DNA from: Desulfocapsaceae bacterium
Lineage (GTDB): Bacteria; Desulfobacterota; Desulfobulbia; Desulfobulbales; Desulfocapsaceae
Assembly: GCA_031292275.1 (NCBI GenBank)
Contig: JARLHL010000022.1
Location: 1-64,000 of the forward strand
Reading direction: 5' to 3'
DNA length: 64,000 nucleotides
This document shows, piece after piece, positions 16,453 through 29,332 of the stretch; within the stretch, counting starts at the first letter, position 1; every line of letters starts with the position of its first letter. The position numbers and the translations under genes are program-made. The notes beneath the pieces were generated by a model. It was not told the DNA's origin. It was given only the letters and a program-made list of their open reading frames with translations, and did not search any database.

Positions 16453-16497
16453 TTGACATCTTATAGGATATACGTATATATACTCGCCAATACGTAT
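16453..16497 (+). promoter_or_regulatory. Promoter and twin palindromic operator of the RHH-activase operon
   Basis: TTGACA (16453-16458) is followed by TATATA at 16475-16480 or 16477-16482 (spacer 16 or 18). The 8-bp palindrome ATACGTAT occurs twice, at 16470-16477 (overlapping the -10) and 16490-16497, starts 20 bp apart, about two helical turns. Short palindromes on one DNA face suit cooperative binding of ribbon-helix-helix dimers, and the next gene encodes one. The ribosome-binding site AGGAGG lies at about 16509-16514. Confidence 0.6.
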
Positions 16498-16518
16498 CGA
16501 TCATCTTCAGGAGGTGTC

Positions 16519-16992
16519 ATGGCGAAAAAAGTAACGGTCAGTATTCCTGATCTTCTCCACGAAAAGATGGAAAAATGGCGACGGTCCTTCAATCTTTCAA
16601 AAATGCTGCAGGATGCTATTGCAGAGGCTATCCAGCGTAAGGAGGACTTTCAGAAGAGGATCCAGGAAGATCTCAATCTCACCGAGATCATTGACAGGTT
16701 GAGGCGGGAGAAGGAACGCTCCGAGGGGAATCTTTTTGAAACAGGCAGGCAGGACGGGGTGGCCTGGGCAAAGACCGCCCATTATGACGATATCCAGTAT
16801 GCCTTGAGCTGGGAGGATTTGGAGAATGCCGCCAGAGACAACCTGCTTGGGGTCTATTTTGCTGAAAAAATAGAAAAAATAATGAACAAAGAAGCGTGTC
16901 AGGAGGGGACGGACGAATATGTGAGGGTCTATCTGGCGGGCTGGAAAAAGGGGCTTTGCGAGTTCTGGGATGAGGTGAAGCAAAAACTGTAA
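16519..16992 (+). CDS. Ribbon-helix-helix (CopG/MetJ-type) regulator with C-terminal domain of unknown role
   Basis: 157 aa. The N-terminal roughly 45 residues, AKKVTVSIPDLLHEKME then NLSKMLQDAIAEAI, fit the beta-strand plus two-helix RHH fold (strand KVTVSIP contacts DNA). A helical charged linker follows (residues 45-75), then a C-terminal domain with GRQDGVAWAKTAHYDDIQYAL and YVRVYLAGWKKGLCEFWDEV that I cannot assign. Start ATG 16519 has AGGAGG 5 bp upstream; the frame is open back to 16426 but that part is promoter. No toxin-like gene is adjacent. Instead a 1411-aa activase begins 28 bp downstream, so this may be a dedicated transcriptional regulator of that gene rather than an antitoxin. 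Confidence 0.72.
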   Translation: MAKKVTVSIPDLLHEKMEKWRRSFNLSKMLQDAIAEAIQRKEDFQKRIQEDLNLTEIIDRLRREKERSEGNLFETGRQDGVAWAKTAHYDDIQYALSWEDLENAARDNLLGVYFAEKIEKIMNKEACQEGTDEYVRVYLAGWKKGLCEFWDEVKQKL

Positions 16993-17020
16993 TCCTGAAA
17001 ATCCTTGAGAAAAAGAGCCA

Positions 17021-20000
17021 ATGAAAAATCCAATGCGGGATAAAGACACTCTGATAGGGATAGATGTGGGCTCCGTGGCCATGGGACTCGTTGAAGTGAG
17101 TCGAGCCCGGGAGGTGAAGCGCACCGCCTACTGTTTTCATCGCGGCGATATTGCCGGATCTCTGCGGAATCTGCTGCAGGACGTCACCCTGTCCGGGATC
17201 TGCTGTGTCGCAGCCACAGCCTCAACGCCTGCGACAATAGCTGCATCGAGGCGGTTCGACAACCAGATCGCGACGATTACCGCGGCCCGATTTTTCCATC
17301 CGCGGATGCAGGGGATGCTCGTGGTCGGCGGTGAAAACTTCAGCCTGTCCACCTTCGATGAGGCCGGACGGTATATAGGCTCTCTGGCCAATACCTCCTG
17401 CGCTGCCGGAACCGGCAGCTTCCTTGATCAGCAGGCAGGGCGTCTCAATCTGGCCGGGGTCCAGGAACTGAGCGAGATAGCCTGCCGGAGTTCAGGGAAA
17501 TGTCCGCGTATTGCCTCGCGCTGTGCCGTATTCGCCAAGACGGATCTGATTCATGCCCAGCAGGAGGGGTATCAGTTGGGTGAGATCAGTGATGGACTCT
17601 GTCTGGGGCTCGCAAAAAATATTGTGGATACAGTGCTCTGTTCAGGAAATCTCCCCCAGGAGATCGCTTTTTGCGGCGGGGTGTCGAAAAACAGGGCCGT
17701 TGTCAGGCATATCGAAGCCCTAACCGGGGTCTCGCTTATTACGGCTGAGATGGGACATCTCTACGGGGCCATAGGCGCTGCCTTCGGCCTGCTTGACGAA
17801 TTGGAGTCGGGTGAGGAGGTGTCCTTGCCGACACTGGTCGCACCAGGCGGTCTGCTGATCGAGCAGGAAAAGACAAAGAGTTATTCCTTCCAGCCTCTCA
17901 AACTGCAGCTTTCCGAATATCCCGATTTTAGCAGCTTTGAAAAATATGAATTCGCCGGAGAGGCGGGCAATCCGGTGGAGGTTGATATCTACCGCGACAT
18001 TGGCCCTGGCGAACAGGTTGCGCTGTATCTGGGCATTGATATCGGTTCGACCAGCAGCAAGGCTGTCCTGATGGAGGAGAGCGGGGAGGTCCTGGCGGGG
18101 CTCTATACCCGGACGGCAGGCAGGCCCCTTGTGGCTGTGCAGCAGATTTTCAGGGCCATTGAGGATATCGCGGCCGGGCGCGGGGCGGACTTCAGGATAG
18201 TCAGATGCGGAACCACCGGTTCAGGCCGGAAATTTGTTGGCCGGATCATCGGCGCCGATGGGGTGATCGACGAGATAACCGCCCATGCCCGGGCGGCCTG
18301 CGAGTTGAATCCCGATGTCGATACCATCATCGAGATCGGCGGCCAGGATGCCAAGTTTACCACCCTCAAAAATGGTCGGGTTACGTCGTCGACCATGAAC
18401 AACGTCTGCGCTGCCGGGACCGGTTCATTCATCGAAGAGCAGGCGGCAAAATTCGGCTGCCCGGTGGATGAATATTCGGTCAGGACCGAAAATGTCCGGG
18501 CCCCCATGGCCAGCGACCGCTGCACGGTGTTCATGGAGCGGGACATGAACCATCATCTCAGCGAGGGGTACGGGATCAATGAAGTCCTGGCCTCGGCCCT
18601 GCATTCGGTCCGGGAAAACTACCTGAGAAAGGTTGCGACGGAGAAGAACATCGGCCGGGTCATCTTCTTTCAGGGAGCGACGGCAAAGAACAGGGCCCTG
18701 ATTGCAGCCTTTGAACAGCGTCTGCAGAAACCCCTGCTGGTCTCGAAATTCTGCCATCTCACCGGGGCGCTGGGGACGGCTTTAATCCTTAAGGACGAGA
18801 ATTCCGGCAACCGGACGGCGTTTCGGGGGCTTCAGCTCTGCAGGAGCGATATTCCGATTGCAACCGAGGTCTGTGAACTCTGCACCAATCACTGCCGGAT
18901 ATCGGTGGCGGATATCCTGGGAGAAAAGGTGGCTTACGGATTCCTCTGCGGCCGGGATTATGAGACCAAAGCCTATGTCAAGAGGCCTTCGAACGCCTTT
19001 GATCTGCTCCGGGAGCGAAGGACGGCCCGCAAGGCCCCGCATCATCCGGATGAGATCACGATCGGTCTGCCTGCGGCAGCGCATATGGTCGATGATCTTG
19101 ATCTCTGGAGAAGATTTTTTGATCTGCTGGGTATCAATACCTGGAGCAGCGAGGATTATGCCGAGGGCCTGAAGAAGGGGAAAAGCCTCAGTCAGGCCGA
19201 ATTCTGCGCCCCGGTTTCCGCCATGCACGGCCACGCCCATTACCTTCTTGAGCGGGCTGACTATGTCTTCATTCCTTATTATCTCGAAAATAAGGCCAAG
19301 GAGGTCCGCCGCCAGTATTGCTATTATACGCAGTTCCTGCCTTCGCTGGTGTCCACCGCTCACCCGGGACAGCAGCAGAGGTTCCTGACCCCGGTGATCA
19401 AATATCTGTACACCTCCTTCCACACCCGTATGGCCCTCTATCGGATGCTCAAGGGCGTGACCAGGAGGCGCATCAACTTTCTGGAGATATCCTCAGCCTT
19501 TGATCAGGCGCTGAATTTTGATGCGGCCAGGCGGCAAAGACTGAGAGAGCTCTACAGTGCAAAAAAGAACCAGGCCTCCGATATCCGCATTGTCTTTCTG
19601 GGAAGGCCGTATACGGTTTTGGCGCCGACAATGAACTGCGGGATTCCCCAGATCTTCAACGGCCTGGGCATCGACACCTATTACCAGGATATGCTCTCCT
19701 ACGAGAGGGACAAGGTGGAACGTGTCGGCCCGCTGCTCAATGAGCTGCACTGGGAGCATGCGGCGAGGATCATCGAGGCCTCGGAGATCATTGCCGGGGA
19801 AAAGGGGGCCTATCCGGTCTATATCACCTCTTTCAAATGCTCCCCGGATTCCTTTGCCGTCGAGTATTTCAAGTCGATCATGGAGGCCCACAACAAACCC
19901 TACCTGATCCTGGAGCTGGACGAGCACGACTCCAGCGTCGGCTATGAGACCAGGATTGAGGCGGCCATCCGTTCATTTAAAAATCATGCGGCAAACCGGC

Positions 20001-21256
20001 AGGTCCGGAAAACTGCACGCTACGGTTCGATCAATCCTCAATTGGAAAAGGGGCTTGACCGAGGGACCGTAGTCTTTCCGAACTGGGACAGGATCACCTG
20101 CAGCCTGCTGGCAGCGACCCTGCGGAGGGAGGGATATGACGTTCATCTGATAGAGGAGACGGCGGCTTCCATCCGGCGGGGTTTGAAAACCAACTCCGGT
20201 CAATGCATTCCCCTGAATGCCATTGCCGAAGGCTATATGAGCTGCATTGAGGAGAAAGGGCTTGATCCTGCCCGGACGGTACTCTGGCTGAACAAATCCA
20301 GCATTGCCTGCAATATCAGGCTCTATCCCCATCATATAAAGACTCTCCTGCAGGAGAGGGGCGGCGGCATGGAGGCGGCAGGGGTCTTCTGCGGCGAGCT
20401 GTCGTTTATCGATATCTCCATCTGGGCGGCGATAAACGCTTACTTTGCCTATATGTTCGGCGGGATGCTGAGAAAGGTTGCCTGCGGGATACGTCCCTAT
20501 GAACGGGAGAAGGGCCTGACGGACCGTGTTCTCAACCAGGGCATTAAACTCCTGACCGAGGCCTTTGCCGGCAAACGTACCAAGGAAAGCGCGCTTTCCG
20601 AAATGATTTCCCGTTTTGAGTGGATTGAGACCGAGTGGGAGCCCAGGCCCAAGGTCGCCCTCTTCGGAGATCTCTATGTCCGTGATAACGAGGTGATGAA
20701 TCAGGATGTGATCCGTTTTATCGAGGAAAACGGCGGTGAGGTGATTACGACGCCCTACAGCGAGTATGCTAAAATGATCGCCCGTTCCTATTTCCGCAAG
20801 TGGTTCAACGAAGGGAAATTTTTCGATGTGCTGTCGCACAGGACCATCCTGGCCACCATGACCCAGCTGGAAAAACGGTATGCCCGAATATTCGGTCGGA
20901 TCCTCGACGAACCGGAGTATGAATATGACGAGTCTCCCGGAAAGATCCTGGCAGAGTACGGCATTTCCGTTGAAAATACAGGGGAGTCAATGGATAATAT
21001 CTTGAAAATTCATTATATCAGGAAGTATCATCCCGACGTGGCTCTTTTTGTCCAGACCAGCCCGGCGCTCTGCTGCGCCTCGTTGATTACCGAAGCGATG
21101 AAGGCAGTCATCGAGCAGAAGACCGGAGTCCCGGTGGTGTCTGTCAGATATGACGGCACTGGTGGAAACAAGAATACCGTCATTATTCCCTATTTGAAAT
21201 ACTCGCATCATCAGGACTGGTCGAAAAACGGCCAGAAACGCTTCCTGGTTGGGTGA
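17021..21256 (+). CDS. Giant acyl-CoA dehydratase activase-related protein (double BadF/HgdC ASKHA plus DUF2229/HgdB-like)
   Basis: 1411 aa. Two ASKHA ATPase modules of the BadF/HgdC activator type: module 1 at about residues 7-265 (LIGIDVGSVAMGLVEV ... NTSCAAGTGSFLDQQ) and module 2 at about 340-590 (LGIDIGSTSSKAV ... NNVCAAGTGSFIEEQ). Each has the cysteines expected for a [4Fe-4S] cluster (module 1: C-A-A-G-T-G and K-C-P-R-I-A-S-R-C; module 2: C-A-A-G-T-G and S-D-R-C-T-V-F). From about 640 to 900 is a DUF2229-type region with several Cys (CELCTNHCR), and the C-terminal third resembles HgdB-like dehydratase subunits (FFGDLYVRDN-type: ALFGDLYVRDNEVMNQDV). Family: ATP-driven electron injectors ('archerases') for radical dehydratases or benzoyl-CoA reductases; the role of the roughly 1400-aa fused class is unknown. 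No separate dehydratase gene lies nearby. Probably cotranscribed with the RHH gene. Confidence 0.85.
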   Translation: MKNPMRDKDTLIGIDVGSVAMGLVEVSRAREVKRTAYCFHRGDIAGSLRNLLQDVTLSGICCVAATASTPATIAASRRFDNQIATITAARFFHPRMQGMLVVGGENFSLSTFDEAGRYIGSLANTSCAAGTGSFLDQQAGRLNLAGVQELSEIACRSSGKCPRIASRCAVFAKTDLIHAQQEGYQLGEISDGLCLGLAKNIVDTVLCSGNLPQEIAFCGGVSKNRAVVRHIEALTGVSLITAEMGHLYGAIGAAFGLLDELESGEEVSLPTLVAPGGLLIEQEKTKSYSFQPLKLQLSEYPDFSSFEKYEFAGEAGNPVEVDIYRDIGPGEQVALYLGIDIGSTSSKAVLMEESGEVLAGLYTRTAGRPLVAVQQIFRAIEDIAAGRGADFRIVRCGTTGSGRKFVGRIIGADGVIDEITAHARAACELNPDVDTIIEIGGQDAKFTTLKNGRVTSSTMNNVCAAGTGSFIEEQAAKFGCPVDEYSVRTENVRAPMASDRCTVFMERDMNHHLSEGYGINEVLASALHSVRENYLRKVATEKNIGRVIFFQGATAKNRALIAAFEQRLQKPLLVSKFCHLTGALGTALILKDENSGNRTAFRGLQLCRSDIPIATEVCELCTNHCRISVADILGEKVAYGFLCGRDYETKAYVKRPSNAFDLLRERRTARKAPHHPDEITIGLPAAAHMVDDLDLWRRFFDLLGINTWSSEDYAEGLKKGKSLSQAEFCAPVSAMHGHAHYLLERADYVFIPYYLENKAKEVRRQYCYYTQFLPSLVSTAHPGQQQRFLTPVIKYLYTSFHTRMALYRMLKGVTRRRINFLEISSAFDQALNFDAARRQRLRELYSAKKNQASDIRIVFLGRPYTVLAPTMNCGIPQIFNGLGIDTYYQDMLSYERDKVERVGPLLNELHWEHAARIIEASEIIAGEKGAYPVYITSFKCSPDSFAVEYFKSIMEAHNKPYLILELDEHDSSVGYETRIEAAIRSFKNHAANRQVRKTARYGSINPQLEKGLDRGTVVFPNWDRITCSLLAATLRREGYDVHLIEETAASIRRGLKTNSGQCIPLNAIAEGYMSCIEEKGLDPARTVLWLNKSSIACNIRLYPHHIKTLLQERGGGMEAAGVFCGELSFIDISIWAAINAYFAYMFGGMLRKVACGIRPYEREKGLTDRVLNQGIKLLTEAFAGKRTKESALSEMISRFEWIETEWEPRPKVALFGDLYVRDNEVMNQDVIRFIEENGGEVITTPYSEYAKMIARSYFRKWFNEGKFFDVLSHRTILATMTQLEKRYARIFGRILDEPEYEYDESPGKILAEYGISVENTGESMDNILKIHYIRKYHPDVALFVQTSPALCCASLITEAMKAVIEQKTGVPVVSVRYDGTGGNKNTVIIPYLKYSHHQDWSKNGQKRFLVG

Positions 21257-21377: not shown

Positions 21378-22232
21378 TCACCAGGTTTGCGCCGGTCTGC
21401 CTTCGGGGCTGAGTGTGCAGGCCCGGACGAAGGGGTCGTGATAGAGCAGAAACCAGCTGTCCATTTTTTGATATTTGGTACAATAGTCTTCCTTGCGGGC
21501 GATGACCTCCAGAGGGAAATTGTCATATGCCATGACCCAGAGGGGATTGAAATGGGCATGGGTAGGGCAGAGGTCGCCCAGATGGACGGCGGTCTTGCCC
21601 TGGGATTGGATTTCAACGATCTGATGCCCGCGGGTATGACCGCCGGAATGGAGGATCGTGATTCCCGGGCAGACTGACCGGTCGCCGTCTACGAGCTCGA
21701 GCTGGCCTGATGTTTGCAAAAGATCAAAATTTTCCGTGAGATAGGTTGATTTTGCCCGGCTGTTCGGATTCTGTACGTCCTCCCACTCCTGCTGATTGAT
21801 GATGTGGGCTGCCTTTGGAAAAGTGATTTCCTTGCTGCCATTCTCGTTCAGCATCAGGATACCGCCGGCATGGTCGAAATCACAATGGGTGAGAATGACC
21901 AGGTCGATGTCGTCTCGTCCGAGCCCGTGAGCTGCAAGCTGGGCCGGGAGATCCCAGGGGGAGGTGACCTTGAAGATGGACCGCTGCTTTTCATCAAGTT
22001 TATTGCCGAGACCGGTATCGATGAGAATATTCAGGCCGGCGGTACGAACCAGTATAGGATCATTGCACATGGGGATCAGATTATTTTCGTCGGCCTTGTA
22101 CCGCTTCTGCCAGAGGCTTTTGGGTACCGGTCCGAACATGGTCCCGCCGTCAAGATGAAAAAAACCTCCTTGCAGCCATGTCAATTCTATGTCGCCAATG
22201 CGGAAGATGGCATGCGTGTTGCCTGTGTCCAT
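21378..22232 (-). CDS. MBL-fold metallo-hydrolase (YtnP/AHL-lactonase-like)
   Basis: About 284 aa. Metal motif LTHCDFDHAGG (H-x-D-x-D-H with one C in place of the usual x) near residue 110, further His in LHSGGHTRGHQIV and HLGDLCPTHAHFNP. The N-terminal part (LTWLQGGFFHLDGGTMFGPVP) is typical of the YtnP-like subgroup that includes quorum-quenching lactonases, but the substrate cannot be read from sequence. I chose ATG 22232 (MDTGNTHAIF), which has GGAG 7 bp upstream; ATGs at 22244 and 22289 lack a good ribosome-binding site. Divergent from the TetR gene at 22715. Confidence 0.85.
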   Translation of the reverse strand: MDTGNTHAIFRIGDIELTWLQGGFFHLDGGTMFGPVPKSLWQKRYKADENNLIPMCNDPILVRTAGLNILIDTGLGNKLDEKQRSIFKVTSPWDLPAQLAAHGLGRDDIDLVILTHCDFDHAGGILMLNENGSKEITFPKAAHIINQQEWEDVQNPNSRAKSTYLTENFDLLQTSGQLELVDGDRSVCPGITILHSGGHTRGHQIVEIQSQGKTAVHLGDLCPTHAHFNPLWVMAYDNFPLEVIARKEDYCTKYQKMDSWFLLYHDPFVRACTLSPEGRPAQTW

Positions 22233-22455
22233 TGTGGGCTCCATGGAGTGGAGAGGATAATGCGGTGTCTGCCGGATTCCTGCCGGCACGGACGGGATTT
22301 CTTTCCGACCTGGGACAGCGGAGTTTTACACTCGTAGTAAGAGTTTGGTAACAATACCAGAATTGAAAGTTGTGGGCAAGATGGGATATACGGTTTTGGC
22401 AGGCGCTTGAAGCCGGGACAAGCCGGTTGCTGCAGGAAGGGAAAAGCTTTTTTCC
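22233..22455. other. 5' half of the MBL/TetR divergent region
   Basis: With the following promoter block this forms a 482-bp gene-free gap. I see no promoter for the MBL gene that I would defend. Confidence 0.4.
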
Positions 22456-22502
22456 TTGACAAACAAAAATCCTTTGCATAAAACAGACGCGATAACAATG
22501 TT
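22456..22502 (+). promoter_or_regulatory. Promoter P1 of the tetR-mce-mcm transcript, twin of the prpE promoter
   Basis: TTGACA (22456-22461), 17-bp spacer, TAAAAC (22479-22484), six bases, then GATAACAATG, and the odd palindrome AACAATGTT (22494-22502) followed by CTT. The same -35, spacer length, -10, GATAASAATG and TAACAATGTTCTT recur on the minus strand before prpE (36895-36950). It gives a leader of about 225 nt before the TetR gene. The box lies at about +4 to +12, where bound repressor would block initiation. Confidence 0.7.
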
Positions 22503-22611
22503 CTTCGCCTTTATATTGCATTGTTCTGTGTGCTTTTTTTATTCTGTTTTTCCAGTAGATTATGTTTGTACAAGAGTTAAAATGCAGTTCTATCTTTACG
22601 GCGAAAAAAAT

Positions 22612-22627
22612 ATCTCACAACTGAGAT
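22612..22627. promoter_or_regulatory. Palindrome in the tetR leader
   Basis: ATCTCA-CAAC-TGAGAT is a perfect 6-bp inverted repeat with a 4-bp centre, about 90 bp before the TetR start. It may be a second operator or an RNA hairpin; no further support. Confidence 0.35.
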
Positions 22628-22714
22628 TGATTGTTTGTAAGGTCTTGTAAATATACAGTTGTTTTTATTTTGACGCCGGCTGGTTAATTTTTTAAAAAAG
22701 GACAAACAGTAACA

Positions 22715-23332
22715 ATGTTAACTGAATTGAATCAAGACATCCATGGCCGTTTGGAACGGGCAGTTCTGGAGGTCTTTTCCAATTATGACTTTCATAAGGC
22801 GAGCATACGGGATATCGCAGATAAGGCGGGGGTCAGTTTTACAACCATCTACAAGCATTACGGCAGCAAGGAACGGTTAGTCTTTGCCTTTGTCGATGTC
22901 TGGATGGGTAAGTTGACGGATCGTATAGTCGATCATCTCCAGGGAATTGAGGACCTGAAGGAAAAACTCAGAAAGGTCTTCTGGCTTCAGCTTGATTACT
23001 ATGAACGCCATCCTGGTCTCGGTCGAATTGTCTTCATGACCCTTCCAATGAAGACGTGGATGGCGGATGAGACCTTTGCTCAGCCGCGAATGATGAATCT
23101 GATGATCAGCGTTCTCAAGCAGGGGCAGGAAGAAGGGATTTTGAACCCTGAGGTCAGCGCAGGTACTCTACTGGATTTTTTGATGGGTTTTGTCCAGCGC
23201 AGTTTTTTCATGTGGATTCTGCGGGGACAGAAGGAAGGTCTGGTCGAGCGGGCAAATGCCATGTTTGAGATGGTCTGGCGGGGGATGGCGAATCCCCAAA
23301 AGGCATCTCATTACAACAGAGTTGATATGTGA
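22715..23332 (+). CDS. TetR-family regulator, probable controller of the propionate/methylmalonyl-CoA genes
   Basis: 205 aa. HTH in residues about 20-60: AVLEVFSNYDFHKASIRDI and GVSFTTIYKHYGSKERLVFA, the recognition helix ending in the hallmark Y-K-H-Y-G-S-K-E. The C-terminal domain (KLRKVFWLQLDYYERHPGLGR ... LLDFLMGFVQRSF) resembles acyl-CoA-responsive TetR proteins that control fatty or short-chain acid metabolism. It lies 58 bp upstream of mce, in the same direction, within a transcript starting at P1, so it is likely autoregulated with mce and mcm. The same box before prpE suggests a wider regulon. The ligand (perhaps propionyl- or methylmalonyl-CoA) is inference. Confidence 0.85.
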   Translation: MLTELNQDIHGRLERAVLEVFSNYDFHKASIRDIADKAGVSFTTIYKHYGSKERLVFAFVDVWMGKLTDRIVDHLQGIEDLKEKLRKVFWLQLDYYERHPGLGRIVFMTLPMKTWMADETFAQPRMMNLMISVLKQGQEEGILNPEVSAGTLLDFLMGFVQRSFFMWILRGQKEGLVERANAMFEMVWRGMANPQKASHYNRVDM

Positions 23333-23390
23333 ATATTGAAAAGTGGAATAACTTGTAGATAAAGCATAATAAAATTTCCGGAGGCACAGC

Positions 23391-23795
23391 ATGAAGATTC
23401 TGAAAATCGACCATTTAGGGATTGCCGTCAACAGTATCGAGGATGGTAAGAATTTCTGGACAGAGACACTGGGACTGCATTTTGAAGGTGCCGAGACAGT
23501 GACCGAACAGAAGGTTACCACTGCATTTTTCCCGGTTGGTGAGAGTGAGGTCGAATTGCTCGAATCGACGTCGCCTGATGGCCCTGTTGCAAAATTCATA
23601 GAAAAAAAAGGTCAGGGATTTCAGCATATCGCATTCAGGGTGGAGAATATTGAAGAAGCCCTTGAAGAGTTGAAAGGAAAAGGCATTCAACTCATCGATC
23701 AGAAGCCGAGAATTGGTGCAGGCGGGGCTAAAATCGCCTTTTTGCATCCCAAGGCAACCGGTGGTGTGCTTGTTGAATTGTGCGAGAGATCATAA
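23391..23795 (+). CDS. mce: Methylmalonyl-CoA epimerase
   Basis: 134 aa, the usual length. Vicinal-oxygen-chelate fold: [19 protein letters not shown] at the start provides the first metal His, [18 protein letters not shown] the second, and a C-terminal Glu (LVELCER) the third. Interconverts (R)- and (S)-methylmalonyl-CoA. GGAGG precedes ATG 23391. Sits between the TetR gene and the mutase whose substrate it supplies, 51 bp before the latter. Confidence 0.95.
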
Positions 23796-23846
23796 GTTTT
23801 ACTTTAATTCCATTAATGGGTATTAGCCATAGGTAAGGAGCTGTAT

Positions 23847-25988
23847 ATGTCACAACATCCGAACAAAGCAAAATGGGAACAGATAGCAAGCAAGCAGATG
23901 AAGGGGAAATCCGTCGATACCCTGGATTGGATGACTCCGGAGGGCATTAACGTCAAGGCCCTCTATACCGCAGAGGACCTCGAGGGAATGGAGTGTGTAA
24001 ATACTCTCCCCGGCATGGCCCCGTACGTCCGCGGGCCCATGGCCACCATGTACTCGGGAAGGCCTTGGACCATCCGCCAGTATGCCGGATTCTCCACTGC
24101 CAAAGAGTCCAATGCCTTTTACAAGAAGGCACTGGCAGCCGGCCAGAAAGGTCTGTCCGTTGCCTTCGACCTTGCTACCCATCGCGGTTATGATTCCGAT
24201 CATCCCCGTGTTGCCGGTGATATCGGCAAGGCCGGTGTTGCCATCGATTCCGTGGAGGACATGAAGATCCTCTTTGACGGCATTCCGCTCAATGAGATGT
24301 CCGTTTCCATGACCATGAACGGCGCAGTTATCCCGATCCTGGCCGGCTACATTGTCGCCGCCGAGGAGCAGGGTGTCAGCCATGCCCAGCTCACAGGGAC
24401 TATCCAGAACGATATTTTAAAAGAGTACCTGACCAGGAATACCTATATCTATCCGCCGACTCCTTCCATGCGGATCATCTCCGACATCATGGCTTACTGC
24501 TCCAAGGAGATGCCGAAGTACAATACCATCAGCATCAGCGGCTATCATATCATGGAGGCAGGCGCCAACAGCGTCCTGCAGACCGCCTTTACCCTGGCTG
24601 ACGGCGTAGAATATGTTAAGGCAGCATTGAAGAGCGGCATGGATGTTGACACCTTCGCTCCCCGCCTGTCCTTCTTCTTCGGCATCGGCATGAACTTCTT
24701 CATGGACATTGCGATGCTGCGTGCCGCTCGTTTCCTCTGGCACCGGCTGATGGCCCAGTTCAACCCCAAGGATGTCAAATCCTCCATGCTCAGGACCCAC
24801 TGCCAGACCTCCGGCTGGTCCCTGACTGAGCAGGATCCCTACAATAACGTCATCCGCACCACGCTGGAGGCCCTGTCAGCAGTCCTTGGCGGTACCCAGT
24901 CGCTGCATACCAACTCCTTCGATGAGGCCATCGGCCTGCCGACGGATTTCTCCGCCCGTATTGCCCGGAACACCCAGATCATCATTCAGGAAGAATCCCA
25001 GGTCTGTCACGTCGTCGATCCGCTGGGCGGCTCGTATTACATCGAATCCCTGACCAACAGCATCATCAACGAGGCGCAGAAGATTATCGATGAGATTGAA
25101 GGGCTTGGCGGTATGGCTAAAGCCATTGAGTCCGGTATGCCGAAGATGCGTATTGAAGAGTCGGCTGCCAGAAAGCAGGCCCGCATTGACCAGGGCAAGG
25201 ACGTCATCGTCGGCGTCAATAAATACAAACTGCCCAATGAGAAGATCGACTTCGATGTCCGGGAGGTTCCTTCATCCGTGCGTGATGAGCAAGTTGACAG
25301 AATTAATCAGATCAAGGCCACCCGTGATAAGGCAACGGTTGAGAAGGCCCTTGCCGACCTGACCAAGGCTGCTGAGAACGGCGGCAACCTTCTTGAGGCC
25401 GCTCTGCCTGCAGTTCGTGCCCGGGCCACCATCGGTGAAATTTCTGATGCGATGGAGAAGGTCTTCGGACGTTTTGTTGCAACCACTAGGTGTATTTCCG
25501 GTGCATATGCTTCGGAATTCACTGGCAACTCAGATGTAATTAATTCTCTTAAAAAACGTACCGAAAACTTCATGGCGAAGCAGGGGCGTCGCCCCAGGAT
25601 GCTGGTTACCAAGATGGGACAGGATGGGCATGACCGCGGCATAAAAGTCGTCGCCAGTGCCTATGCCGATCTCGGATTTGATATCGACATCAGCCCGATG
25701 TTCCAGACTCCTGAAGAAGCTGCCAAAATGGCCATTGAAAATGATGTCCATGTCGTTGGTGCTTCAAGTCTTGCTGCAGGTCATAAAGCCCTGGTTCCGG
25801 CGCTGATTGAAGAGTTGAAAAAGCTCGGCGGCGGCGATATCATGGTTGTAGCGGGTGGTGTTATTCCTCCTGGAGATTATGACTATCTGTATGAGAGGGG
25901 CGTGAAGGCTGTTTTCGGTCCCGGCACCCCGATCACTGATTCTGCAGATAAGACCCTTACGCTGATTGAAGAAAAATATCTTCGGTAG
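23847..25988 (+). CDS. mcm: Methylmalonyl-CoA mutase, single-chain (large) form
   Basis: 713 aa. Adenosylcobalamin-dependent isomerase converting (R)-methylmalonyl-CoA to succinyl-CoA. The N-terminal substrate barrel holds [17 protein letters not shown] and [20 protein letters not shown]. The C-terminal B12 domain (about residues 575-713) carries the DGHDRGIKV base-off motif with its axial His, GASSLAAGH and GPGTPI. Both parts are in one chain and no small-subunit gene is present, so it is probably a homodimer. AAGGAG precedes ATG 23847. Followed by a strong terminator, then meaB. Confidence 0.97.
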
Positions 25989-26120
25989 GAGGTATTGATT
26001 ACTGTGAGTCCCGGGCAAAATTCTGCTCTTTTCGTGAGATGCGAGAAGGGAGTTTGGTGCCTGGGACGGATTTGAGGTAATCATAATTCAGGCTGTTTTG
26101 GTCCCATCGAAAAAGACGAA

Positions 26121-26167
26121 AGGGTCCGACGACGTGTTGCAAAGCTCGGTTGTTGGACCCTTTTTTT
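26121..26167 (+). terminator. Rho-independent terminator after mcm
   Basis: AGGGTCCGACGAC pairs with GGTTGTTGGACCC (two G-U pairs) and is followed by seven T (26161-26167). It separates mcm from meaB, so meaB is either read by leak-through or has its own start. Confidence 0.8.
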
Positions 26168-26227
26168 ATTTATCCTAAAGGATACAGGAGATGCAAAACT
26201 GGTCCTTGAAACCGAAGGTCATTGGCA

Positions 26228-27211
26228 ATGTTTAAAGATCCTCAATATTTTGTTCAAGGCGTTCTCGATCACAACCGCTTGATTCTGGCCCGTACGATTA
26301 CGCTGATTGAAAGCACTCTGCCGGCACATCAGGAAATGGCCAGAGAGATAATTGATAAGATTCTTCCCTCTACCGGCAAGTCCATCCGTATCGGCATAAC
26401 CGGTGTCCCCGGAGCAGGAAAAAGTACCTATATCGAGAGCTTCGGGACCATGTTGACTGAACTGGGGCATAGGGTGGCAGTGCTTGCCATCGACCCCAGC
26501 TCTACCCGCAGCGGCGGATCCATCCTTGGTGATAAGACCCGGATGGAGCAGCTTGCCATCAATGAAAAGGCCTTTATCAGACCTTCGCCATCCGGTGGTA
26601 CGCTGGGCGGAGTGGCCAGGAAGACCCGGGAAACCATGCTGGCCTGCGAGGCTGCCGGTTTTGACGTCGTTATCATCGAGACGGTGGGTGTTGGTCAATC
26701 GGAAACTACCGTAGCCTCTATGGTCGACTTCTTTTTGGTCCTGATGATCGCCGGCGCCGGAGATGAGCTTCAGGGTATAAAAAAAGGCGTGCTTGAAGTG
26801 GCCGATGCCATCGTCATCAACAAGGCTGACGGCGATAACGTTATGCGGGCCCAGATGGCCCAAAAGGAGTACCAGGCCGCATTGCATCTGCTGATGCCGG
26901 CCAGTTCAAACTGGTCGCCGCCGGTGTTGACCTGCAGCTCTCTGGACCGGACGGGGATTGATAAGATATGGGAGACCATTCTAGAACACCGATCCATATT
27001 CACCGCCAGCCAGGAATTTGCCGAAAAAAGGAAGACCCAGGCACTGGACTGGATGTCCTTTCTGCTGGATGAAGGTCTGCGGACCTGGTTTTACAATGAT
27101 CCCCAGGTCAAGGATGTGCTGCCCCGGCTTAGAAATGAGGTCGAATTGGACAGGATCTCGCCGACCGCTGCAGCGGGACAACTCCTTTCCTTTCTGAAAA
27201 AGATGGAATAA
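26228..27211 (+). CDS. meaB: MeaB/ArgK G3E-type GTPase, methylmalonyl-CoA mutase chaperone
   Basis: About 327 aa. P-loop GVPGAGKSTYIESFG, then LAIDPSSTRSGGSILGDKTRM (switch region), ETVGVGQSE and NKADG, all diagnostic of MeaB. It gates cofactor loading and protects the B12 mutase encoded just upstream. I chose ATG 26228 (MFKDPQYFVQG) with GAAGG 9 bp upstream; TTG 26222 is possible. A 15-codon frame 26191-26235 begins directly after AGGAG and overlaps this start; it may be accidental. Convergent with the carboxylase gene on the other strand. Confidence 0.94.
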   Translation: MFKDPQYFVQGVLDHNRLILARTITLIESTLPAHQEMAREIIDKILPSTGKSIRIGITGVPGAGKSTYIESFGTMLTELGHRVAVLAIDPSSTRSGGSILGDKTRMEQLAINEKAFIRPSPSGGTLGGVARKTRETMLACEAAGFDVVIIETVGVGQSETTVASMVDFFLVLMIAGAGDELQGIKKGVLEVADAIVINKADGDNVMRAQMAQKEYQAALHLLMPASSNWSPPVLTCSSLDRTGIDKIWETILEHRSIFTASQEFAEKRKTQALDWMSFLLDEGLRTWFYNDPQVKDVLPRLRNEVELDRISPTAAAGQLLSFLKKME

Positions 27212-27294
27212 ACTCCCCTGTGATGTCTTGTTTCCCCAGGCACGCTCCCTGAGGAATTGTGCTTTAATTGTCTTACCTGTTTGCAGCAAAATAA

Positions 27295-27335
27295 AAAAGG
27301 GTATCCGAAAGTTTGAGACTTCTGGATACCCTTTT
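27295..27335. terminator. Bidirectional terminator between meaB and the 5S gene
   Basis: AAAAGGGTATCC (27295-27306) and GGATACCCTTTT (27324-27335) form a 12-bp stem with A- and T-runs on the two sides, so it can end transcripts from both convergent genes. Confidence 0.85.
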
Positions 27336-27361
27336 CTTTTCGGGTGTATCAACTGTAGTGC

Positions 27362-29332
27362 TTAGCCGATAACGCAGAGGGCAGCGCCCTTGGCTACGTT
27401 ATCACCGCTCTTGAAGTCAATGGCAAGGATGGTGCCTGCGCATGGGGAGGGCAGCGCATTCTCCATCTTCATTGCCTCAAGGATCACGATGGTGTCGCCT
27501 TTGTTGACCTTGTCACCAACATTCTTTTCGTATTTAACGATCATACCAGGCATTGGTGCCATCAAAACCGTGCCGGGACCGGTATGGGCGGCAGGTGCGG
27601 CGGCAGGGGCAGCAGCAGGTGCCGCTGCCGCCGGGGCAGCAGCGGGCGCGGCGGCTGCGACAGGAGCAGCTGCTCGAGGTGCAGCAACCATAACCGGAGC
27701 ATCACCGATCGGGTCAACGTCAACACTGAAGAACTCGTTGTCGACAAACACATTGAAGGTCCTGACCCTGTCCGTCTTGCCGGGAGCAGTGGTCTTCTTT
27801 TCAACGAGAAGACCAGCCTTGGCCTTCTTGATGATCTCGTCATTCTTCTTAACTTCTTCCAGGGTGATGGGTTTTACACTGTCAGGTACCTCGGTCTTGC
27901 CGTACTTCCACTCCAGGAATTTCTTGCCGGTAACCGGATAGATGGCGTAGAGCACCAGATCGTCGATGTCGACAGCCAGATCGCCGATATCAGCCTTGGC
28001 CTTCTCAAGCTCGGGCGCAAGAACCTCTGCCGGACGGCAGGTGATGGGTTTTTCACCGCGGGAATATCCCTTGAGGGCCTTCTTCTGCACCTCGGGGTCA
28101 ATGGGCACTGCAGTCTTGCCATAGAGGCCGTAGCACAGATCCTTGACCTGGCCGGTAATCATCTTGTAGCGTTCATCAGGGGTGTCGTGAAGGACGTTAT
28201 TGACTGTCTGGACACCGACGATCTGACTGGTCGGGGTGACAAGCGGGATCTGGCCGAGATCCTTACGGACCCTGGGAAGTTCCTTATAGACCTCACCAAT
28301 CTTATCGAGCGCATCCATCTCTCGCAGCTGATTAACCAGGTTGGAGAGCATGCCGCCGGGGGTCTGATGCAGCAGAACGTTGATGTCAATGATGGAGACC
28401 TTGGAGTCATCAAGAAGGTGCTTGTATTTGGGCATAACCTCCTTCTCGAGGATCTCGTTGACTGCTGCCAGCTTCTTGATATCGAAGCCGGTATCGCGGT
28501 TGGTGCCGAGAAGGGCCATGACCAATGGTTCCAGGGCAGCATGGGAAGTACGATAGGCATAGGGGGTCATACAGGTATCGATGATGTCAACACCGGCCTC
28601 AATGGCCTTGAGATGACTCATTGGAGACATACCTGAGGTGAAATGGCTGTGCAGATGAATGGGGGCCTTCACGGCCTCCTTAAGGGCCTTGACCAGGGCA
28701 TAGGCATCGTAGGGGGCAATGAGACCGGCCATATCCTTAATACAGATAGAATCGGCGCCCATAGACTCCAGGTCTTTGGCTTTCTTGATATAGTAGTCCA
28801 GATTATAGACTTCACCACCCAGACGGGGCTCGGTCAGGGTGTAGCAGATACAGCCCTGGAAGTGCTTTTTACATTTTTTGATCTGTTTGACAACCGTCTC
28901 AAAATTCCGGTAATCGTTCAGTGCGTCGAAGGTCCGGAAAACGTCCATGCCGTTTTCAGCGGAACGCTCGACGAAGGCCAATGCCAGATCATCGGCATAA
29001 TTCCTGTAGCCTACGAGATTCTGCGCCCTCAGCAGCATTGAGAATGGAGTCTTCTTGATATAGCGTTTCAGGGTGCGCAGGCGCTCCCATGGGTCTTCGT
29101 TCAAAAAGCGGTGCATGGTATCAAATGTGGCGCCGCCCCATGTCTCTATGGCCCAGAAGCCGATCTCGTCCATCATCTCGGCAACCGGGATCATGTCCTC
29201 TGTACGACCACGGGTCGCAAACAGGGACTGATGGCCGTCACGTAAAGACAGGTCCATGATTTTTACAGGATTTTTGGCTTTCGGGCGGTCACTACCATAC
29301 TTCAAAGCAGTCATCTTGACTTGGTCACTCAT
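27362..29332 (-). CDS. Biotin-dependent carboxyltransferase, 5S/PycB/OadA type with fused biotinyl domain
   Basis: 656 aa. Residues about 20-290 are the pyruvate/oxaloacetate carboxyltransferase barrel: MDLSLRDGHQSLFATR, the carbamyl-Lys site SICIKDMAGL and the metal motif HLHSHFTSG. About 300-500 is the PYC_OADA region. A long Ala/Pro linker (bases about 27585-27690) leads to the biotinyl domain with EAMKMENAL near the C-terminus. No membrane segment. With the 12S-type protein (30234-31784) it would make a soluble methylmalonyl-CoA:pyruvate transcarboxylase, as in Desulfobulbus and Propionibacterium, where the 1.3S biotin carrier is separate; here it is fused to 5S. Sodium-pump oxaloacetate decarboxylase is the alternative, but no OadB-like membrane gene is seen. 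AAGGAG precedes the ATG. Confidence 0.93.
   Translation of the reverse strand: MSDQVKMTALKYGSDRPKAKNPVKIMDLSLRDGHQSLFATRGRTEDMIPVAEMMDEIGFWAIETWGGATFDTMHRFLNEDPWERLRTLKRYIKKTPFSMLLRAQNLVGYRNYADDLALAFVERSAENGMDVFRTFDALNDYRNFETVVKQIKKCKKHFQGCICYTLTEPRLGGEVYNLDYYIKKAKDLESMGADSICIKDMAGLIAPYDAYALVKALKEAVKAPIHLHSHFTSGMSPMSHLKAIEAGVDIIDTCMTPYAYRTSHAALEPLVMALLGTNRDTGFDIKKLAAVNEILEKEVMPKYKHLLDDSKVSIIDINVLLHQTPGGMLSNLVNQLREMDALDKIGEVYKELPRVRKDLGQIPLVTPTSQIVGVQTVNNVLHDTPDERYKMITGQVKDLCYGLYGKTAVPIDPEVQKKALKGYSRGEKPITCRPAEVLAPELEKAKADIGDLAVDIDDLVLYAIYPVTGKKFLEWKYGKTEVPDSVKPITLEEVKKNDEIIKKAKAGLLVEKKTTAPGKTDRVRTFNVFVDNEFFSVDVDPIGDAPVMVAAPRAAAPVAAAAPAAAPAAAAPAAAPAAAPAAHTGPGTVLMAPMPGMIVKYEKNVGDKVNKGDTIVILEAMKMENALPSPCAGTILAIDFKSGDNVAKGAALCVIG

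Follow-up and report, generated by a model that had tools for sequence, protein, structure and literature searches.

A two-gene unit of an RHH-like regulator and a giant protein combining duplicated ASKHA domains with two dehydratase-like modules in Desulfocapsaceae

Results

The DNA analysed comes from a Desulfocapsaceae bacterium, an uncultured member of the desulfobulbial, sulfate-reducer group; the whole stretch of 64,000 nt is referred to as the window. It contains, at 16453-21256, a two-gene unit coding for a small RHH-like protein and, after a gap of 28 bp, a giant protein. The unit is probably an autoregulated bicistronic operon, whose giant product would be a single-chain version of the activator and acceptor machines of class I benzoyl-CoA reductases and 2-hydroxyacyl-CoA dehydratases. 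This reading starts from the domain order, the homology between modules, the invariant cysteines and the conservation of operator and gene pair, as seen in sequences and in a predicted model, and extends by inference to clusters, electron flow, repression and class of substrate. The 'missing partner' of the activase would accordingly be fused into the same chain, not absent.

Organization of the locus

The features of the unit are reported in Table 1. The elements listed by an earlier interpretation, made from the letters of the DNA (the sequence-only reading), i.e. a promoter (with a TTGACA box), two perfect ATACGTAT palindromes 20 bp apart, an RHH-like gene and a 1411-aa double-ASKHA protein 28 bp on, are all present. 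The ATG of the RHH-like ORF is preceded by AGGAGGTGTC. A search for RNA elements found none.

Table 1. Features of the RHH-giant unit, with their positions in the window
Feature	Positions	Strand	Remarks
Promoter	16453..16482	+	-35 TTGACA at 16453-16458; TATATA at -10, spacer 16 or 18 nt
Operator palindrome 1, ATACGTAT	16470..16477	.	Within spacer/-10 region; candidate operator by conservation
Operator palindrome 2, ATACGTAT	16490..16497	.	20 bp 3' of palindrome 1, or some two turns of the helix; candidate
RHH-like regulator, 157 aa	16519..16992	+	Weak RHH_5/CcdA matches; residues 1-44 RHH-like, predicted DNA-binding part
RHH-like regulator, residues 45-157			Helical C-terminal domain without family assignment
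Giant protein, 1411 aa	17021..21256	+	ASKHA1, ASKHA2, 4-Cys linker and two HGD-D-like modules
ASKHA domain 1 (aa ~9-260)	17045..17800	+	Cys127 and Cys168 invariant
ASKHA domain 2 (aa ~335-590)	18023..18790	+	Cys463 and Cys501 invariant; aligned with HgdC activator 1HUX
4-Cys linker C618-X2-C621-X3-C625-X17-C643	18872..18949	+	Conserved without exception in 41 diverse giants
HGD-D-like module 1 (aa 665-989; includes DUF2229)	19013..19987	+	Cys729, Cys767, Cys940
HGD-D-like module 2 (aa ~1004-1399)	20030..21217	+	Cys1062, Cys1097, Cys1351; homology to module 1

Downstream of the giant gene, the region 21378-29332 of the window encodes a MBL-fold hydrolase and a TetR-like regulator, followed by methylmalonyl-CoA pathway genes (methylmalonyl-CoA epimerase, mutase, MeaB and biotin carboxyltransferase). 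This methylmalonyl-CoA cluster also adjoins the giant gene in genomes G001, G007 and G023.

Conservation of the gene pair

Among 58 relatives, the RHH gene was detected in 11 genomes, every time directly 5' of a close giant. A profile search over 243 genomes of the order retrieved 14 full-length RHH genes, including five not found by the first search, all located before a giant; four further matches, limited to about residues 1-42, represent other RHH proteins, encoded in different surroundings. When both searches are combined, the pair is present in 16 distinct genomes, all of one family. Within this set, the giant gene of G029 appears broken, and that of G002 leaves the contig end. At the G029 locus (contig C52, 7698-11293; L058) the giant is found in pieces corresponding to residues 5-147, 338-489 and 514-1395, with a stop codon in frame, an appearance that recombination between ASKHA1 and ASKHA2, or collapse of the repeat during assembly, would give.

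The co-occurrence of regulator and activase, which the sequence-only reading proposed to check, holds for the regulator, each of the 16 full-length RHH genes directly preceding a giant. The same count, extending over several genera with differing flanks, bears on the alternative that the RHH protein is an unrelated, self-regulating neighbour of mobile or toxin-antitoxin-like origin and that the giant gene is read through by accident. Short RHH-only matches elsewhere do sit in unrelated, mobile-looking contexts, which speaks for this alternative, but it is very improbable in view of the constant order of the two genes.

The giants found in this way form a clade, with about 57-77% identity inside and up to about 34% to other giants, in which most members have the RHH regulator. 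Two close giants, those of G028 and G018, have no RHH gene upstream, indicating that RHH regulation is not essential. Since an EamA-like flanking gene is common to G028 and to Desulfopila sp. IMCC35008, where the RHH gene is present, the latter was likely gained or lost at a fixed site.

The promoter and its paired palindromes

The promoter had been described as a consensus one. This holds for the -35 box, a perfect TTGACA, and less so for the -10 sequence TATATA, which, with either spacing (N16 or N18), matches at four of six positions; the promoter is absent from the output of a strict sigma-70 scan. TTGAC(A) is found at a similar upstream distance in nearly all orthologues, mostly with the palindrome pair just 3' of it.

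The ATACGTAT 8-mer occurs twice in the window, against 0.14 expected, both times at the RHH promoter. A pair of ATACGTAT-like palindromes, spaced 18-20 bp, was found in 16 out of 16 distinct RHH promoters, with P <= 0.009 for each of them when compared to Markov-shuffled sequence; apparently identical genomes (L050 = G530, L051 = G473) were each counted once. The pair was not found at either of the two close giants devoid of RHH (G028 and G018; P 0.72 and 0.64). Genome-wide, G000, G003 and G016 each have a single exact match to the pair, at the RHH-giant promoter, and such restriction to a single promoter suggests autorepression of the local operon and not a regulon. In genus g6 (promoters L010 and L011) a ACACGTAT site shares bases with the -35 box (as TTGACACGTAT in L010), an operator register unlike that of the other genera.

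The RHH-like regulator

The assignment of the 157-aa protein to the RHH group is based on weak similarity, below Pfam cut-offs: the best RHH_5 match (E 0.0018, 18.4 bits, cut-off 26) was obtained with a 44-residue fragment of one orthologue. An AF2 monomer model contains no ribbon strand, and its N-terminal block has a pLDDT of 53. The protein is conserved along its full length in 13 orthologues. Comparison of the C-terminal domain to Pfam, PHROGs, PDB sequences and PDB folds returned nothing credible. Its G-x-x-W-A and W-x-x-L-K-x-K-L motifs faintly recall the C-terminus of RHH proteins encoded at three other loci (L127-L129), a likeness that is suggestive only. At L127 (1501-2774), L128 and L129, in other family members, the RHH protein is part of a three-gene set, together with an 86-aa protein, featuring NHAVNRCQQRG close to its N-terminus, and a third one of about 147 aa; the set resembles a mobile or toxin-antitoxin-like unit.

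Domains of the giant protein

BcrAD_BadFG matches two stretches of the giant (201.3 bits, cut-off 31.5), corresponding to the two ASKHA domains. CoA_E_activ (TIGR00241, 'acyl-CoA dehydratase activase') scores 226 bits, against a cut-off of 125, and PF09989 (DUF2229) scores 131.3 bits, against a cut-off of 29.4. By sequence, the two ASKHA domains are clearly duplicates of each other (E 8e-57), and neither has lost its GTG/Cys motifs. Each unit contributes two cysteines (four per pair) which are invariant across the giants compared; those of ASKHA2 align with the conserved cysteines of the solved activators 1HUX (HgdC) and 4EHT, and those of ASKHA1 align with ASKHA2. Fourteen cysteines of the giant are invariant in total. 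Four of them form the linker that joins the ATPase pair to module 1 (aa 618-643), a motif matching no assigned family and likely to be an extra Fe-S or Zn site; it is perhaps where electrons enter, or a zinc ribbon.

The remaining part of the protein was modelled by AF2 (aa 600-1411; pLDDT 85.3, pTM 0.82). In a fold search with model residues 66-390, corresponding to module 1, the matches listed with Z between 11 and 15 are exclusively ten BCR/HAD entries, the next row being at 7.7. They include 2-hydroxyisocaproyl-CoA dehydratase (3o3n_B, Z 15.2), DCCP (6eno, 14.4), BzdN (8s02_B, 14.1) and also the Mbd reductase. Profile alignment by hhalign relates module 1 to HGD-D with E 8e-6; its score against Pfam HGD-D (PF06050), 22.6 bits, is under the gathering cut-off of 28.4, and it is not filed as a PF06050 member. 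Module 2 aligns to module 1 (hhalign probability 97.4, E 1.1e-11), with Cys729, Cys767 and Cys940 paired to Cys1062, Cys1097 and Cys1351. Compared directly to HGD-D it gives no clear match (E 0.003, probability 11), and it is absent among the structural matches listed, a list that one domain can fill. A direct profile search of the C-terminal half against PDB sequences retrieved BzdN, at E 0.23, as its sole match. On the basis of the fold of module 1 and of the homology of module 2 to module 1, the C-terminal half is read as the dehydratase/reductase-like part of the giant.

The ten cysteines listed for this half are invariant in 41 giants spanning 17-76% identity. According to our reading of the AF2 model, the three cysteines of each module sit at the N-termini of corresponding helices. 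In the benzoyl-CoA reductase subunits, the active-site [4Fe-4S] cluster of BzdO is bound by Cys95, Cys128 and Cys380, and the double cubane ([8Fe-9S]) of BzdN by six cysteines (PMC11971306). By analogy, a three-cysteine cluster per module would be the natural reading. A double-cubane cluster in the modules is disfavoured, invariant cysteines being three per module and not six.

Search for a separate partner enzyme

The statement that no partner dehydratase accompanies the activase is correct for the neighbouring genes and, genome-wide, for stand-alone HGD-D genes; what it missed are the dehydratase-like modules inside the giant. The HgdA/B-like partner for which the sequence-only reading proposed to search was not found in the own genome (99.98% complete), which holds zero stand-alone HGD-D proteins and zero second BadF proteins above cut-off. 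HGD-D is missing from 11 of 23 giant-bearing genomes, five of these 11 having the RHH pair. In these 23 genomes no HGD-D gene lies near a giant, and HGD-D genes, where present, are located elsewhere; an arrangement in which the giant is always placed beside a complete dehydratase in relatives is thus not what was observed. The view of a self-contained, regulated two-gene operon is borne out, as the pair is conserved, the double operator is kept at its own promoter and a stand-alone dehydratase never adjoins. The view of an 'orphan' injector acting on an external target fares worse: it is probably the giant's own C-terminal half that accepts the electrons, and at least five genomes with the RHH pair (the own genome, G003, G016, G021 and G032) are without stand-alone HGD-D.

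The giant might still be an activase acting in trans on an enzyme encoded elsewhere, its C-terminal modules being docking or relay domains. Its annotation by TIGR00241 would fit, as would the Ruminococcus MAGs in which a giant adjoins a separate Hgd-D-like gene (PMC11362221). This is nevertheless unlikely, given the five genomes just named, the separation of giants from HGD-D genes and the persistence of all three cluster cysteines in both modules across distant giants. A target from another protein family is a possible variant of the same idea.

Gene neighbourhoods vary by genus. In g1 and g6 the giant has methylmalonyl-CoA genes within a few kb, in g4 propionate-CoA genes; lysine degradation genes are found in one genus, nicotinate genes in one and unrelated genes elsewhere. 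The proximity in g1, g6 and g4 could suggest that the giant is a redox repair factor, similar to the RamA-type ATP-driven corrinoid reactivators, serving a neighbouring B12 or Fe-S enzyme, for example methylmalonyl-CoA mutase. This proximity is not kept in the other genera, however, and methylmalonyl-CoA mutase is not known to require ATP-driven electron injection, making a repair role improbable. Derivation of the substrate from the neighbourhood was rejected on the same ground, propionate genes occurring in three genera and the lysine and nicotinate genes in one each.

Discussion

In the single-chain reductase/dehydratase reading preferred here, the RHH-like protein would sit as dimers on the two palindromes overlapping the -10 region and keep both its own promoter and the giant gene repressed, pending release by a signal. 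The two ASKHA domains would form an internal pseudo-dimer, able to bind ATP and to hold one [4Fe-4S] cluster on Cys127, Cys168, Cys463 and Cys501. Hydrolysis of ATP would then drive a low-potential electron into one or more clusters at Cys729/767/940 and Cys1062/1097/1351, and the charged modules would reduce a substrate, or dehydrate it through radical chemistry. For this substrate a CoA thioester may plausibly be guessed, from the family and not as a result. A bolder and rather doubtful version depicts a complete one-protein ATP-driven low-potential reductase under a ligand-sensing RHH repressor; the substrate would not be one of the known CoA esters, and the RHH C-terminal domain would bind it.

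If electron pump and two dehydratase-like modules do reside in one chain, the giant should be assayed alone, instead of with a missing partner. The regulator and its nearly genome-unique operator offer a direct handle, as the inducer of the RHH protein would point to the substrate. Should its C-terminal domain bind the substrate, this would reveal what a very widespread, uncharacterised family of enzymes does: PF09989 is found in 230 out of 297 genomes from the phylum, for the most part within ORFs about 1400 residues long, and also in Thermotoga and Lactococcus control genomes. No functional study of PF09989 giants was found in the literature searched.

Comparison with known systems

Class I benzoyl-CoA reductases (BcrABCD, BzdNOPQ, MbdNOPQ) likewise combine two ASKHA units with two HGD-D-like units, and the three cysteines of module 2 are spaced by 35 and 254 residues, those of BzdO by 33 and 252. 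The giant differs in being one chain, not four subunits, and in having no six-cysteine double-cubane set; the aromatic substrate is a feature of the reductases. With the 2-hydroxyacyl-CoA dehydratases (HadBC with HadI, HgdAB with HgdC) it shares the HgdC-like activator, carrying the same Cys pair, and the nearest fold of module 1 (3o3n_B), whereas its activator is duplicated and fused, a four-cysteine linker is added and the sequence remains under the HGD-D cut-off. The double-cubane cluster proteins DCCP and DCCP-R (6eno, 7yzm) resemble module 1 in fold; three invariant cysteines per module are found here, in place of the six binding the [8Fe-9S] cluster in BzdN.

CopG/RHH_5 and CcdA-type regulators resemble the RHH-like protein by weak similarity of residues 1-44 and by a palindromic tandem operator at their own promoter, while the protein described here adds a C-terminal domain of 113 residues without family or fold match.

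The giant is a member of the DUF2229 giant activase family (PF09989 plus two BadF domains), by its scores above cut-off and with the same domain order and length; within this family it belongs to a separate clade, most members having their own RHH regulator. The fusion of two YjiL units with DUF2229 was already described (PMC11362221). To this, the present analysis adds evidence that the stretch after DUF2229 is, by homology to module 1, a second HGD-D-like module, that a separate HGD-D gene is not needed and that the RHH protein is clade-specific, with a dedicated double operator. As DUF2229 giants are common and the fusion is in the literature, the enzyme represents a known type in variant form, and what is newer is the dedicated regulator with its operator.
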